Shown: positions 25,635-32,875 of the stretch, in pieces
Position numbering within the stretch: position 1 is the first letter of the stretch
Layout of the letters: each line of letters begins with the position of its first letter
NCBI RefSeq assembly: GCF_030687395.1
Contig: NZ_CP117430.1
Location: forward strand, 6,200,001 to 6,264,000
Length of the DNA stretch: 64,000 nucleotides
DNA from: Pseudomonas wuhanensis
GTDB taxonomy: Bacteria > Pseudomonadota > Gammaproteobacteria > Pseudomonadales > Pseudomonadaceae
Direction of reading: 5' to 3'
Notes under the pieces: model-generated
What the model was told of the DNA's origin: nothing
Databases searched by the model: none
The model's input: only the letters and a program-made list of their open reading frames with translations
Made by a program: the position numbers and the translations under genes

Positions 25635-27041
25635 ATGTCGAAGTCGGTTCAACTCATCAAAGATCATGACGTCAAGTGGATTGATCTGCGCTTCACGGAC
25701 ACCAAAGGCACTCAGCACCACGTGACCATGCCGGCTCGCGATGGGCTGGATGAAGCTTTCTTCGAAGAAGGCAAAATGTTCGACGGTTCCTCCATCGCTG
25801 GCTGGAAAGGCATCGAAGCTTCCGACATGATCCTGATGCCGGACGACAGCACTGCCGTTCTCGACCCGTTCACCGAAGAGCCGACCCTGATCCTGGTTTG
25901 CGACGTGATCGAGCCTTCGACCATGCAAGGCTACGACCGTGATCCACGTGCGATCGCCAAGCGTGCCGAGGAATACCTGAAATCGACCGGTATCGGCGAC
26001 ACCGTATTCGTGGGCCCAGAGCCAGAGTTCTTCATCTTCGACGAAGTGAAGTTCAAGTCCGACATCTCCGGTTCGATGTTCAAAATCTTCTCCGAACAAG
26101 GTTCGTGGATGTCCGACCAGGACGTGGAAGGCGGCAACAAAGGCCACCGTCCAGGCGTCAAAGGCGGCTACTTCCCTGTTCCGCCGTTCGACCACGACCA
26201 CGAAATCCGTACCTCCATGTGCAACGCCATGGAAGAAATGGGCCTGGTCATCGAAGTTCACCACCACGAAGTGGCGACTGCCGGTCAGAACGAAATCGGC
26301 GTGAAGTTCAACACCCTGGTGGCCAAGGCTGACGAAGTTCAGACCCTGAAATACTGCGTACACAACGTTGCTGACGCATACGGCCGCACCGCGACCTTCA
26401 TGCCTAAGCCTCTGTACGGCGATAACGGTTCGGGTATGCACGTTCACCTGTCCATCGCCAAAGATGGCAAGAACACCTTCGCTGGCGAAGGCTATGCCGG
26501 CCTGTCCGATACCGCTCTGTACTTCATTGGCGGCATCATCAAGCACGGTAAGGCTCTGAACGGCTTCACCAACCCGTCGACCAACTCCTACAAGCGTCTG
26601 GTCCCAGGTTTCGAAGCTCCAGTGATGCTGGCTTACTCGGCTCGCAACCGTTCGGCTTCGATCCGTATTCCTTACGTGTCCAGCCCTCGCGCTCGCCGTA
26701 TCGAAGCTCGCTTCCCGGATCCAGCAGCCAACCCGTACCTGGGCTTCGCTGCACTGTTGATGGCTGGCCTGGACGGCATCCAGAACAAGATCCACCCTGG
26801 CGACGCAGCTGACAAAAACCTGTACGACCTGCCGCCTGAAGAGGCGAAAGAGATCCCACAAGTTTGCGGCAGCCTGAAAGAAGCCTTGGAAGAGCTGGAC
26901 AAAGGTCGTGCGTTCCTGACCAAAGGCGGCGTGTTCTCCGATGACTTCATCGACGCTTACATCGCTCTGAAAAGCGAAGAAGAAATCAAGGTTCGTACCT
27001 TCGTACACCCACTGGAATATGAGCTGTACTACAGCTGCTGA
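25635..27041 (+). CDS. glnA: Glutamine synthetase type I
   Basis: Dodecameric ATP-dependent enzyme forming glutamine from glutamate and ammonia. The 468 residues carry [23 protein letters not shown], the ATP-binding [11 protein letters not shown], the NRSASIRIP ammonium/glutamate site and the adenylylation site [10 protein letters not shown] (Tyr about 397), so it is the GS-I-beta type controlled by GlnE. GGAGG precedes the ATG at 25635. A good sigma-54 promoter lies upstream and a strong terminator follows, so in this genome glnA is not cotranscribed with ntrBC, which begins 2.3 kb downstream with its own control region. Confidence 0.98.
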
Positions 27042-29308: not shown

Positions 29309-29364
29309 TTTTCCCCGTATCGGCGCGTTATTCATGCGCATGCCCTGCTCCAAAAGAGGTCCTG

Positions 29365-30450
29365 ATGACCATTAGCGACGCACTACACCGCTTGCTACTC
29401 GACAACCTGACCACCGCAACCATTCTGCTCGACGCCGAACTGCGCCTTGAGTACATGAACCCGGCGGCGGAGATGCTCCTGGCCATCAGCGGCCAGCGTA
29501 GCCATGGGCAGTTCATCAGTGAGTTGTTCACCGAATCCACCGAGGCGCTGAACTCCCTGCGCCAGGCAGTCGAGCAGGCACACCCGTTCACCAAGCGTGA
29601 AGCGATGCTCACCGCCCTCACCGGCCAGACCCTGACCGTCGACTACGCGGTAACGCCGATCCTGAGCAATGGCGATACGCTGCTGTTGCTGGAGGTTCAC
29701 CCGCGCGACCGCTTGCTGCGGATCACCAAGGAAGAGGCGCAGTTGTCGAAGCAAGAAACCAGCAAGATGCTGGTACGCGGCCTCGCCCACGAAATCAAAA
29801 ATCCTCTGGGCGGGATTCGCGGCGCGGCTCAGTTGCTCGCCCGTGAATTGCCGGAAGAAAGCCTGCGCGATTACACCAACGTCATCATTGAAGAGGCCGA
29901 TCGCCTGCGCAATCTGGTGGATCGCATGCTCGGCTCCAACAAATTGCCGTCATTGGCCATGTGCAACGTCCATGAAGTGCTGGAGCGCGTGGGTCAGTTG
30001 GTGGAGGCCGAAAGTCAGGGCTGCATCACTTTGGTGCGCGACTACGACCCAAGCATTCCGGATGTGTTGATTGATCGCGAACAGATGATTCAGGCCGTCC
30101 TGAACATCGTGCGCAACGCGATGCAGGCCATCAGCAGCCAGAACGAGCTGCGCCTTGGCCGCATCAGCTTGCGGACCCGCGCCATGCGCCAGTTCACCAT
30201 CGGCCACGTGCGCCATCGCCTGGTGACCAAGATCGAAATCATCGACAACGGCCCGGGGATCCCCGCCGAGCTACAGGAAACCATCTTCTTCCCCATGGTC
30301 AGCGGCCGTCCGGACGGTACCGGGCTGGGCCTGGCCATTACCCAGAACATCATCAGCCAGCACCAGGGCCTGATCGAATGTGACAGCCATCCAGGCCACA
30401 CCACGTTCTCGATCTTTCTGCCACTGGAACAAGGAGCCACATCGACATGA
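29365..30450 (+). CDS. ntrB: Nitrogen regulation sensor kinase NtrB (GlnL)
   Basis: Soluble histidine kinase/phosphatase that sets NtrC phosphorylation according to nitrogen status through PII. The ATG at 29365 with AAGAGGT upstream gives 361 residues, the usual length; the open frame extends further upstream but without a ribosome site. An N-terminal PAS domain (about 10-120) precedes the H-box GLAHEIKNPLGGIRGAAQLL, the N-box NIVRNAMQAI, DNGPGIP and GTGLGLAI. It overlaps ntrC by four bases. Upstream lie an NtrC box and a possible sigma-54 promoter. Confidence 0.97.
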   Translation: MTISDALHRLLLDNLTTATILLDAELRLEYMNPAAEMLLAISGQRSHGQFISELFTESTEALNSLRQAVEQAHPFTKREAMLTALTGQTLTVDYAVTPILSNGDTLLLLEVHPRDRLLRITKEEAQLSKQETSKMLVRGLAHEIKNPLGGIRGAAQLLARELPEESLRDYTNVIIEEADRLRNLVDRMLGSNKLPSLAMCNVHEVLERVGQLVEAESQGCITLVRDYDPSIPDVLIDREQMIQAVLNIVRNAMQAISSQNELRLGRISLRTRAMRQFTIGHVRHRLVTKIEIIDNGPGIPAELQETIFFPMVSGRPDGTGLGLAITQNIISQHQGLIECDSHPGHTTFSIFLPLEQGATST

Positions 30451-31883
30451 GCCGTAGTGAAACCGTGTGGATCGTCGATGACGACCGTTCTATCCGTTGG
30501 GTCCTGGAAAAGGCCTTGCAGCAGGAAGGCATGACCACGCAAAGCTTCGACAGCGCCGATGGCGTGATGAGCCGCCTGGCGCGCCAGCAGCCGGACGTGA
30601 TCATCTCCGACATCCGCATGCCGGGTGCCAGCGGTCTGGACCTTCTGGCGCGGATTCGCGAACAACACCCACGGCTGCCAGTGATCATCATGACCGCGCA
30701 CTCCGATCTGGACAGCGCTGTCGCGTCCTATCAGGGCGGCGCATTCGAATACCTGCCCAAGCCGTTCGATGTCGACGAAGCCGTCTCTCTGGTCAAGCGC
30801 GCCAACCAGCACGCTCAGGAACAGCAAGGCATGGAAGTCCCGGTCGCCCTGACCCGCACACCGGAAATCATCGGCGAAGCACCGGCGATGCAGGAAGTGT
30901 TTCGCGCCATCGGGCGCTTGAGCCACTCCAACATCACCGTGCTGATCAATGGCGAATCCGGTACCGGTAAAGAACTGGTGGCCCACGCCCTGCACCGTCA
31001 CAGCCCACGGGCGGCCTCGCCGTTCATTGCGCTGAACATGGCGGCGATCCCCAAGGATCTGATGGAATCCGAGTTGTTCGGCCATGAAAAAGGCGCGTTC
31101 ACCGGCGCGGCCAACCTGCGTCGCGGGCGTTTTGAGCAGGCCGATGGCGGCACGCTGTTCCTCGATGAAATCGGCGACATGCCGGCGGACACCCAGACCC
31201 GCTTGCTGCGGGTACTGGCGGACGGCGAGTTTTACCGCGTTGGCGGTCATGTGCCGGTGAAAGTCGATGTGCGAATCATCGCCGCGACGCACCAGAATCT
31301 GGAAACCCTGGTGCATGCCGGAAAATTCCGTGAGGACTTGTTCCACCGCCTCAACGTGATCCGCATCCACATTCCACGGCTGTCGGACCGTCGCGAAGAC
31401 ATCCCGACCCTGGCCAAACACTTCCTAAGTCGCGCCGCGCAAGAACTGGCGGTGGAACCGAAGCTGCTGAAAAGCGAAACCGAGGAATACCTGAAAAACC
31501 TGCCGTGGCCAGGCAACGTGCGCCAGCTGGAAAACACCTGCCGCTGGATCACTGTGATGGCTTCGGGTCGCGAAGTGCACATCAGCGATCTGCCGCCGGA
31601 ACTGCTGAGCCTGCCGCAGGATTCGGCGCCGGTCACCAATTGGGAGCAAGCGCTGCGTCAGTGGGCTGATCAGGCGCTGGCTCGCGGTCAGTCGAGCCTG
31701 CTCGACAGCGCCGTGCCAGCTTTCGAGCGGATCATGATCGAAACCGCCCTCAAACACACCGCCGGCCGCCGCCGCGATGCTGCCGTTTTGCTGGGTTGGG
31801 GCCGTAATACCCTGACGCGCAAGATCAAGGAATTGGGGATGAAGGTTGATGGTGGGGATGATGATGAGGGTGATGAGGGCTAA
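30447..31883 (+). CDS. ntrC: Nitrogen regulation response regulator NtrC (GlnG)
   Basis: Sigma-54 activator, 478 residues. Receiver domain with phospho-acceptor Asp 55 (IISDIRMPGASG); AAA+ domain with Walker A GESGTGKE, the sigma-54-contacting GAFTGA loop (HEKGAFTGAANLRRG) and GGTLFLDEIGDMP; Fis-type helix-turn-helix at the C-terminus (RRRDAAVLLGWGRNTLTRKI). A highly acidic Gly/Asp tail ends the protein. Start overlaps the ntrB stop. Predicted target sites occur at several places in this window, including before ntrB itself and before the small RNA gene that follows. Confidence 0.97.
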   Translation: MSRSETVWIVDDDRSIRWVLEKALQQEGMTTQSFDSADGVMSRLARQQPDVIISDIRMPGASGLDLLARIREQHPRLPVIIMTAHSDLDSAVASYQGGAFEYLPKPFDVDEAVSLVKRANQHAQEQQGMEVPVALTRTPEIIGEAPAMQEVFRAIGRLSHSNITVLINGESGTGKELVAHALHRHSPRAASPFIALNMAAIPKDLMESELFGHEKGAFTGAANLRRGRFEQADGGTLFLDEIGDMPADTQTRLLRVLADGEFYRVGGHVPVKVDVRIIAATHQNLETLVHAGKFREDLFHRLNVIRIHIPRLSDRREDIPTLAKHFLSRAAQELAVEPKLLKSETEEYLKNLPWPGNVRQLENTCRWITVMASGREVHISDLPPELLSLPQDSAPVTNWEQALRQWADQALARGQSSLLDSAVPAFERIMIETALKHTAGRRRDAAVLLGWGRNTLTRKIKELGMKVDGGDDDEGDEG

Positions 31884-31917
31884 ACAGCCTTTAGTTCTTC
31901 GTTGACCGCCAGATCCA

Positions 31918-32009
31918 ATCGCGGGCAAGCCCGCTCCCACAGGATTTTCAGTGGTTTCACCATCGCGTGAACACCGTTGAACCTTGTGGGAGCGGGCTTG
32001 CCCGCGATG
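31918..32009. repeat. REP pair
   Basis: ATCGCGGGCAAGCCCGCTCC(CACA) faces (TGTG)GGAGCGGGCTTGCCCGCGAT across about 42 bp, between ntrC and the nrsZ control region. Confidence 0.93.
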
Positions 32010-32024
32010 CTTTTGGGGCCACCG

Positions 32025-32041
32025 TGCACCGACTGAATGCA
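32025..32041. promoter_or_regulatory. NtrC-binding box upstream of nrsZ
   Basis: TGCAC-CGACTGA-ATGCA matches TGCAC-N7-GTGCA at nine of ten positions and is centred about 178 bases before the predicted nrsZ start. Confidence 0.65.
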
Positions 32042-32120
32042 CCATGAACTGCAATCGCGCACGACAACCGATCCAAAACCCCACCTCCACCTGCAAGAAA
32101 ACCCCTATTACATAAACACA

Positions 32121-32143
32121 AAAGCCCCGGATTACGGGGCTTT
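32121..32143 (+). terminator. Hairpin terminator downstream of ntrC
   Basis: AAAGCCCCG-GATTA-CGGGGCTTT, perfect 9-bp stem. The T tract after it is short (TTTC), but it is the only terminator-like hairpin other than the REP pair between ntrC and the next promoter. Confidence 0.65.
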
Positions 32144-32183
32144 CAGGGCTACTCGACGACTTTCTGTTGCAAGTTATTAAAAA

Positions 32184-32200
32184 CTGGCACGCCCCCTGCA
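32184..32200 (+). promoter_or_regulatory. Sigma-54 promoter of nrsZ
   Basis: CTGGCACGCCCCCTGCA: perfect -24 box CTGGCACG, GG-N10-GC spacing, -12 box CTGCA (one mismatch from TTGCA). It is the best -24 box in the window. Predicted start near 32211. Confidence 0.9.
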
Positions 32201-32210
32201 ATAGTCCAAT

Positions 32211-32437
32211 CAGTGATTCGATTCACTACCCAGTTTCGGGGACCTTGGTACAGGCAGGCCGGGGATTCCCCTCTTTACACCGGGCTCATACCGCAACAGC
32301 GACGAGCCCATCCCGTTTTGGGGTCCTTGGTACAGGCAGGCCGGGGATTCCCTCTTTACACCGGGCTCACGCGGCAATGCGCGAGCCCTCCCGTTTTGGG
32401 AACCTTGGTACAGGCAGGCCGGGGATTCCCTCTTTTA
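32211..32437 (+). ncRNA. nrsZ: NrsZ-type nitrogen-regulated small RNA, three repeat modules
   Basis: About 225 nt following a sigma-54 promoter, directly downstream of ntrC. It consists of three imperfect tandem modules beginning near 32229, 32312 and 32390; the shared core CCTTGGTACAGGCAGGCCGG continues into GGATTCCC and recurs at 32243, 32325 and 32403 (periods 82 and 78). Modules 1 and 2 end in a hairpin with stem GGGCTC / GAGCCC; module 3 stops after GGGGATTCCCTCTTTT, the likely 3' end. In P. aeruginosa, NrsZ is reported as an NtrC- and RpoN-dependent RNA downstream of ntrC that is processed into three similar modules and regulates rhlA; location, promoter and architecture agree. The family name is inferred from these features; exact ends are estimates. 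The 3' end touches the stop codon of the convergent gene. Confidence 0.82.
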
Positions 32438-32875
32438 TTGCTCTCGGAGATGGATCTCCAGCCGCCAGCGGTCATCGACCTCGCTACCGACCCACTCGCC
32501 CTGCAGCGGCCGGGCCGCCACCACCGTCAACAACAATCCCCCATCACTCAACCGCGTTCGCCAGTTCACGTCCTTGCCGTTGAGCTTGAGCTGACCTTTC
32601 TGCGCATGGCCTTCAGCCTCGAACAACAGCGCCACGCTGCCGTCGACTATCTCGCCGTGGGTTTTGGGTTCGTTGTTGAACCACACCACCAGTCCATCGT
32701 TCGTCACCTCGACCTGCTGCAAAACGCTGGGGTCGGGCGCGGTCAGGCGACCGATCATCAGGCCCACCATCACCCCGACAATCGCCAGCGAAGCCATCAC
32801 TCGCGGGAATAGTTTCGAACGAGGGTCCTTTGGCGGCGTAGAATGCCCGTCATCTTTACCTTCGGAGCCGTGCAT
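32435..32875 (-). CDS. Hypothetical protein with one N-terminal membrane helix
   Basis: A 146-residue protein I do not recognise. A charged N-terminus (about 1-25) is followed by one membrane segment (MASLAIVGVMVGLMIGRL, about 27-44) and a soluble, probably periplasmic, beta-rich domain with VTNDGLVVWFNNEPK and WRTRLSDGGLLLTVVA. The ATG at 32875 shares bases with the trmL ATG on the other strand (CATG) and has no clear ribosome site; an internal ATG at 32797 would retain the membrane helix. The 3' end abuts the convergent sRNA gene. Synteny with other pseudomonads suggests a conserved neighbour of ntrC-trmL. Confidence 0.75.
   Translation of the reverse strand: MHGSEGKDDGHSTPPKDPRSKLFPRVMASLAIVGVMVGLMIGRLTAPDPSVLQQVEVTNDGLVVWFNNEPKTHGEIVDGSVALLFEAEGHAQKGQLKLNGKDVNWRTRLSDGGLLLTVVAARPLQGEWVGSEVDDRWRLEIHLREQ

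Follow-up and report, generated by a model that had tools for sequence, protein, structure and literature searches.

An NrsZ-type small RNA with three tandem hairpin modules downstream of ntrC in Pseudomonas wuhanensis, and the variable module number of its relatives

Introduction

How many copies of its seed does a regulatory RNA need? A locus downstream of ntrC in Pseudomonas wuhanensis raises this question. It lies in the window that we analysed, a 64,000-nt stretch corresponding to positions 6,200,001-6,264,000 of one 6.59-Mb contig, for which an initial annotation had proposed a sigma-54-driven small RNA of the NrsZ type. The original study of NrsZ, in P. aeruginosa PAO1, is reportedly that of Wenner et al. 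(2014), and the RNA is presumed to be induced when nitrogen is scarce.

Passages of two reviews describe P. aeruginosa NrsZ as raising the translation of rhlA (PMC8395346, PMC9308961) and name ACAGGCAG as the activating motif, the first 60 nt being sufficient (PMC9308961, PMC8395346). In one of them the full-length RNA measures ~226 nt, and species of ~40 and 140 nt are said to be abundant (PMC8395346). In passages of other papers, NrsZ appears as a separate RpoN-dependent sRNA after ntrBC (PMC9731577) and in the list of an Hfq CLIP-seq study, where its planktonic enrichment was not significant (PMC6890931). Experimental reports of an NrsZ start under NtrC and sigma-54 come, in such passages, from P. 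aeruginosa only. Here we find that the window's nrsZ is a true, ordinary member of this already described family. Less familiar is the picture offered by related bacteria, which appear to carry one to eight copies of the hairpin unit, with an exposed loop that is nearly always the same.

Results

The window carries a complete NrsZ locus

The Rfam NrsZ family (RF02695) matches the window with 158.7 bits against a cut-off of 76.9 (E 2.4e-40). The alignment covers the full model length (positions 1-236 of 236), and a scan of the whole genome returned this match only. The name NrsZ thus stands; the initial annotation had staked it in part on a covariance score better than background. The alias P11 falls away, with no match to an Rfam P11 family up to E = 1 in 31900-32600. 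The agreement with published NrsZ that had been claimed extends to the position after ntrC, which the family search locates where it was expected (Table 1), and to the promoter, the three modules and the predicted size (227 against ~226 nt).

Upstream lie glnA, ntrB and ntrC, the start of ntrB having been chosen within a longer open frame. Downstream, nrsZ meets a convergent gene of 146 aa for which no Pfam or NCBIfam family was found at E 0.001. The RNA gene is placed between ntrC and the position held by PA5126 in P. aeruginosa, the convergent gene being equated with PA5126 by position only. A homologue of this gene also adjoins NrsZ in two genomes of a neighbouring genus, g3. Judged by the convergent gene, the nearest relatives among the best 80 of 479 matches listed include Pseudomonas sp. 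GM79, Pseudomonas sp. GM50, P. farris and P. lini.

Table 1. Features of the nrsZ region, numbered from the first letter of the window
Feature	Position	Strand	Basis or remark
glnA, type I glutamine synthetase	25635..27041	+	NCBIfam PRK09469 849.8 bits (cut-off 845); TIGR00653 664.4 (429.15)
ntrB, sensor kinase NR(II)	29335..30450	+	NCBIfam PRK11073 394.2 bits (cut-off 240)
ntrC, response regulator NR(I)	30447..31883	+	TIGR01818 795.3 bits (cut-off 558.6)
NtrC-like box TGCACCGACTGAATGCA	32025..32041	+	9 of 10 consensus letters; similar sites in relatives
sigma-54 promoter (-24/-12), TGGCACGCCCCCTGCA	32185..32200	+	motif
nrsZ, predicted primary transcript of ~227 nt	32211..32437	+	Rfam match 32227-32447; motifs
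Short predicted 5' hairpin	32212..32227	+	folded for the window alone
Module 1 seed hairpin, loop ACAGGCAG at 32250-32257	32238..32271	+	folding
Linker hairpin 1 (GGGCTC/GAGCCC)	32282..32309	+	folding
Module 2 seed hairpin, loop at 32332-32339	32320..32351	+	folded alone
Linker hairpin 2	32363..32388	+	folding
Module 3 seed hairpin, same as terminator stem, loop at 32410-32417	32398..32430	+	folded alone
Terminator T-run TCTTTTATT, overlapping the convergent stop codon	32431..32439	+	
Convergent gene, 146 aa	32435..32875	-	PA5126 position of P. aeruginosa (by position only)

Three direct repeats of 50 nt begin at 32226, 32308 and 32386 (spacing 82 and 78), two of which share 84% and 94% identity with the one taken as reference, and the loop ACAGGCAG recurs at 32250, 32332 and 32410. 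The three imperfect tandem modules of the initial annotation are therefore real. It was also right that module 3 lacks the second (GGGCTC/GAGCCC) hairpin and that the unit ends in a T-run where it meets the convergent gene: TTTT at 32433-32436 enters the stop codon at 32435-32437.

Every module folds alone as a hairpin, that of module 1 reading GGGGACCUUGGU-ACAGGCAG-GCCGGGG..UCCCC. When all 227 nt are folded together, the minimum-energy structure retains module 1 and linker hairpin 1 and pairs module 2 with module 3 (z -2.85), so the case for separate modules is built on single-module folding and on comparison. The spacer hairpins differ in sequence, yet 208 of 210 distinct linkers fold better than their single-base shuffles (z below -1). 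The longer type of leader, with 37-46 nt up to loop 1, in which the window's 5' hairpin is predicted, occurs at 15 of 60 genus loci; across the 60, the predicted RNA length runs from 50 to 565 nt.

A sigma-54 promoter motif and an NtrC-like box precede the modules

The pattern TGGCACG-N4-YTGCA matches once in the 64 kb, at 32185-32200, where 0.07 matches are expected. The GG/GC spacing of this box sets +1 at 32211, in accord with the promoter and start first proposed. Among relatives, TGGCA-N7-TGC is present at 60 of the 60 genus loci examined, and the distance from predicted start to loop 1 is 23-46 nt.

The NtrC box said to lie about 178 bases upstream is a more qualified case. A site is present, centred 178 nt before +1 and agreeing in nine of ten letters with what we take to be the NtrC consensus; taken alone it is within chance, with 0.53 such sites expected in the window and 29 of 100 shuffles holding one. 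It gains weight because similar upstream sites, with at least nine of ten letters, precede 34 of 60 genus loci, compared with 17 of 1200 single-base shuffles. Their distance, measured from loop 1, varies among relatives.

Two further elements lie in this stretch. Between ntrC and the NtrC-like box, at 31920-32007, there is an inverted pair of REP-like repeats, cgcgggcaagcccgctcccaca / tgtgggagcgggcttgcccgcg. Past this box and ahead of the sigma-54 motif, a palindromic terminator-like hairpin at 32119-32145, reported on the minus strand, might end transcripts arriving from either side.

The stem covaries around a conserved loop

An alignment of 79 modules (78 distinct) separates the hairpin into two parts. 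In the upper stem, both sides of a pair have changed in 13 cells, where shuffles give 1.4. Pairing is possible in 95.4% of cells, compared with at most 67.8% for slid versions of the alignment. The loop and its closing U-G pair are without variation in the 78 distinct rows. Invariance of a U-G pair is odd for a purely structural pair, which suggests that the ten bases UACAGGCAGG in and around the loop may be read as sequence.

Over a larger set, 381 of 381 modules from the genus (127 distinct arrays) contain TACAGGCAGG, a count that is partly so by construction: copies were located through the octamer, and only the flanking T and G, together with the model matches, add to it. At 60 loci, covariance-model matches and exact octamers both number 157, the model itself having been built from octamer-bearing copies; the module filter recovered 152 of the 157 and missed modules with a CAGT variant. 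The 127 distinct arrays stem from 138 arrays at 140 loci (L145 and L148 were dropped), a set that mixes best-scoring, deliberately weak and nearest relatives and is no random sample.

Does every copy need the loop? At 19 of 24 g3 loci (noted for L293-L314) the loop of the module listed last is altered, for example to GACCAGGCAG or TTCAGGCAGG, with a stem and T-run retained, so evidently not. Perhaps the terminator was kept there and the seed lost. The 24 are those examined of 25 g3 loci; L313, which has no promoter motif, was left out.

Module number ranges from one to eight

The NrsZ family is present in 291 of 298 genus genomes, bearing out, along with the promoter motif, the comparison across Pseudomonas homologues proposed at the outset. 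A single-module model, built from alignment A1, likewise matches 291 of the 298. The Rfam cut-off is exceeded in 203 of the 298; its consensus has three modules, and it leaves 88 of the 291 matching genomes below threshold. Counting all matches per genome under stricter filters, with single-locus placement confirmed for some genomes and not for every one, we found one module in 79 of the 291, two in 55, three in 117, four in 28, five in 6, six in 1, seven in 4 and eight in 1. Among the 79 genomes with one module, no Rfam E-value is better than 4.8e-14; the cut-off score falls between 5.4e-19 and 7e-18, so they lie far under it. Two-module loci straddle the cut-off, with three of five over (L031-L033) and two under (L034-L035). 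Single-module genes retain promoter, hairpin and T-run.

The nearest named relatives (best 80 of 479) mostly share the window's number: 64 have three modules, nine have four, two have two, two have eight, and six, one and no modules occur once each. Number can differ within a species name, as two records named P. lini, which stand apart on the tree, carry three (L072) and six (L140). A tree for 131 arrays, built from one 438-nt gene and with 45 of 121 inner branches open, requires 30 changes of module number, where the shuffled mean is 50.4. One locus (L107) holds five identical 78-nt units in tandem, and the single unit of another (L110) resembles a first module at its start and a last module at its end. 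Both point to recombination between copies, and a simple reading of these sequences would suggest that arrays change size in this way.

A sample of 145 genomes of the order, scanned under stricter filters, yielded five with NrsZ, each belonging to the window's own taxonomic family. In g3 it is present in 25 of 25 genomes, 24 of them exceeding the cut-off. Among the seven genus genomes without an NrsZ match, five also showed no convergent gene (three of these are <90% complete), and in another genome without a match (G284) the convergent gene appears as a weak partial match of 39 residues only; the seventh is G037, described below. Of four viral contigs with the loop motif, three matched the model in part, at 19-21 bits, and the fourth did not match it, so there is no sign of a phage copy.

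Individual loci depart from the common arrangement. At nine single-module loci (L036-L038, L040-L042, L044, L045 and L051) no convergent reading frame meets the hairpin, behind which comes another terminator-like hairpin of the classical kind. Downstream of ntrC in genome G037 (L220), nrsZ looks broken: long inverted repeats flank a stretch that splits a module remnant, as a small palindromic insert would. In Pseudomonas sp. Choline-02u-1 (L148) the convergent gene is present and no adjoining NrsZ module was found.

The last hairpin coincides with the predicted terminator

Runs of at least four T's follow 125 of 127 terminal modules (single ones included) and 15 of 254 internal ones (Fisher p 2e-80, ignoring relatedness). 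All 25 single-module loci L036-L060, which come from genomes chosen for weak Rfam scores, have four T's behind the hairpin. In 93 of 105 arrays the terminal tail scores above the mean internal tail, and in the other 12 it does not. Internal units therefore seem weakened, and polymerase would read on. At 51 of 60 loci, the convergent stop codon lies 24-27 nt past the last loop, within the T-run.

Genus g3 is unlike the window's genus in that the T-runs of its internal modules are mostly stronger. Counted from the predicted start, stem plus T-run of its modules 1 and 2 are complete at 44-54 and 139-143 nt in 22 of 23 loci, in round figures near 52 and 140 nt; the 23 are those having a promoter and a second module, and they are close relatives, not independent cases. 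At L291, the locus nearest the Rfam model (259 bits), which its score suggests to be P. aeruginosa or a close relative, modules end at 53, 142 and 221 nt.

Discussion

We take the whole of these observations to be best explained, with a probability of roughly 0.92, by an nrsZ RNA of three units that is driven by NtrC and sigma-54, carries its seed in the loop, ends in a last unit that terminates it, and varies its dose through copy number. Under nitrogen limitation, phosphorylated NtrC and sigma-54 RNA polymerase would start an RNA of ~227 nt at 32211, to judge from the motifs. This RNA would consist of three copies of one unit, a hairpin holding UACAGGCAGG in and around its loop, with variable spacer hairpins between them. 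The loop would act as a base-pairing seed on target mRNAs, as its invariance and the motif published for P. aeruginosa indicate, and the last hairpin would double as the terminator. One unit would be enough for function, so that copy number probably sets dose, and arrays may grow and shrink through recombination between copies. A very different account holds that the repeats arose by chance, or are a mobile tandem repeat with no function as RNA. The REP-like inverted repeats nearby, at 31920-32007, count in its favour, but genus-wide conservation, the promoter at all 60 loci and the compensatory changes in the stem speak so strongly against it that we give it almost no credence.

What are the shorter species of NrsZ? 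The two reviews, in their passages on this RNA, call it processed (PMC8395346, PMC9308961), and the published reading has the full-length transcript cut by RNase into similar modules. We think this more probable than not. The cuts would be expected at U-rich joints, CUCUUUACACC, which are alike between modules, and the poor internal T-runs of the window's genus favour read-through; yet these cut sites are proposed and none is mapped, and in g3 the sizes fit termination too. The competing thought, which we hold tentatively and would not bet on, is that modules are complete seed-plus-terminator units and that shorter species arise at least partly through premature termination at modules 1 and 2. 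A T-rich stretch does lie behind the module stems, species with one module end at the same hairpin, the end points of modules 1 and 2 in g3 are as such termination would have them, and the ends at L291 can be set beside the ~226, 140 and ~40 nt and the functional first 60 nt given for P. aeruginosa in passages of PMC8395346.

Several of these points cut both ways. The ~140-nt species could be a termination product at module 2, as the module positions would allow, but it could equally be the 3' part left by a cut behind module 1, and the ~40-nt species is shorter than every predicted termination product. The comparison also leans on L291 being P. aeruginosa or near it, which comes from its score. 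Internal T-runs are short in the window's genus and mostly score below the terminal one, so premature termination should be less frequent there, and even in g3 the tail of module 1 is poor at 4 of 22 loci (ACTTTT, score 1.11). RNase cutting keeps its place as the reading we favour for the short species, and if they were termination products, the published processing step would need a second look. A broader proposal, which we put forward as possible although doubtful, is that NrsZ is a self-terminating seed unit repeated one to eight times in tandem, with T-runs weak internally and strong at the end. Strong internal T-runs would then give a ladder of RNAs, and unit number together with T-run strength would set the number of seeds per transcript.

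Why should the number of units matter? The series of one to eight across the genus amounts to a natural experiment on the seed number that a regulatory RNA requires. This series and the apparent double use of one hairpin, both read from sequence comparison, are in our view what deserves a specialist's time. Duplicated small RNA units side by side are also known from PrrF1 and PrrF2 of Pseudomonas, although these are separate genes under iron control, unlike the modules of a single NrsZ transcript. The passages on NrsZ in PMC8395346, PMC9308961, PMC6890931 and PMC6321483, and likewise those in PMC9731577, PMC13390351 and PMC7291925, make no mention of a variable module number, and the original NrsZ paper may have one; nor do these passages mention loop invariance with stem covariation or a seed hairpin that is also the terminator.

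How does the window's RNA compare with known systems? As passages on PAO1 describe it, NrsZ shares with the window the locus after ntrC, the sigma-54 promoter, the loop ACAGGCAG and the size (226 against 227 nt). Structural comparison was made through the g3 loci L291 and L227 as stand-ins for PAO1. The window's RNA has three modules, as does L291. It differs in its longer leader, with loop 1 at nt 40 against ~26 in L227 and a predicted 5' hairpin, and in its poor internal T-runs (TCTTTACA), which contrast with those of L291 and L227. GlnZ of Enterobacteriaceae, according to passages of PMC9731577, is likewise a small RNA connected with nitrogen and with the glnA/ntrBC region, but it is released from the glnA 3' UTR.

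With what might the loop pair? Target searches in this genome brought up neither an enriched nor a conserved site. Genome-wide, the conserved ten-mer has its complement at eight sites, three of them in nrsZ; the other five compare with four for the reversed control, which is no enrichment, and none of the five is at a convincing gene start. The complement of the octamer falls within 30 nt before an ATG at 91 places (40 forward, 51 reverse) against 12 and 11 for the reversed control, an excess from which we conclude nothing, as the reversed control does not share the motif's codon bias. Of these places, the first 30 and ten stretches picked by eye were examined, and a filter left one candidate, L171.

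Two genes were considered and set aside. One of the five ten-mer sites lies in gltB (glutamate synthase) and is retained at 23 of 30 loci within the genus and at 3 of 27 outside it, where codon use predicts 15.7 of 30 and 3.5 of 27; it is a weak lead, seemingly not clearly above codon use, at loci that share ancestry. The gltB set comprised 31 genus genomes with a match, giving 30 loci, and 42 genomes of the order, giving 29 (L262-L290), two of which are without the site motif and one of which, from G317, belongs to a genome that carries NrsZ. The mgtA leader (L179) has two sites, and the exact octamer is found in none of the five nearest homologues, L190 keeping seven of eight letters of one site. 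Upstream of mgtA (L179 and L189) there is a short reading frame, starting MDDASSRFAA in the genome of the window and with a similar start in several of the five relatives, which precedes the magnesium ATPase gene and possibly encodes a leader peptide.
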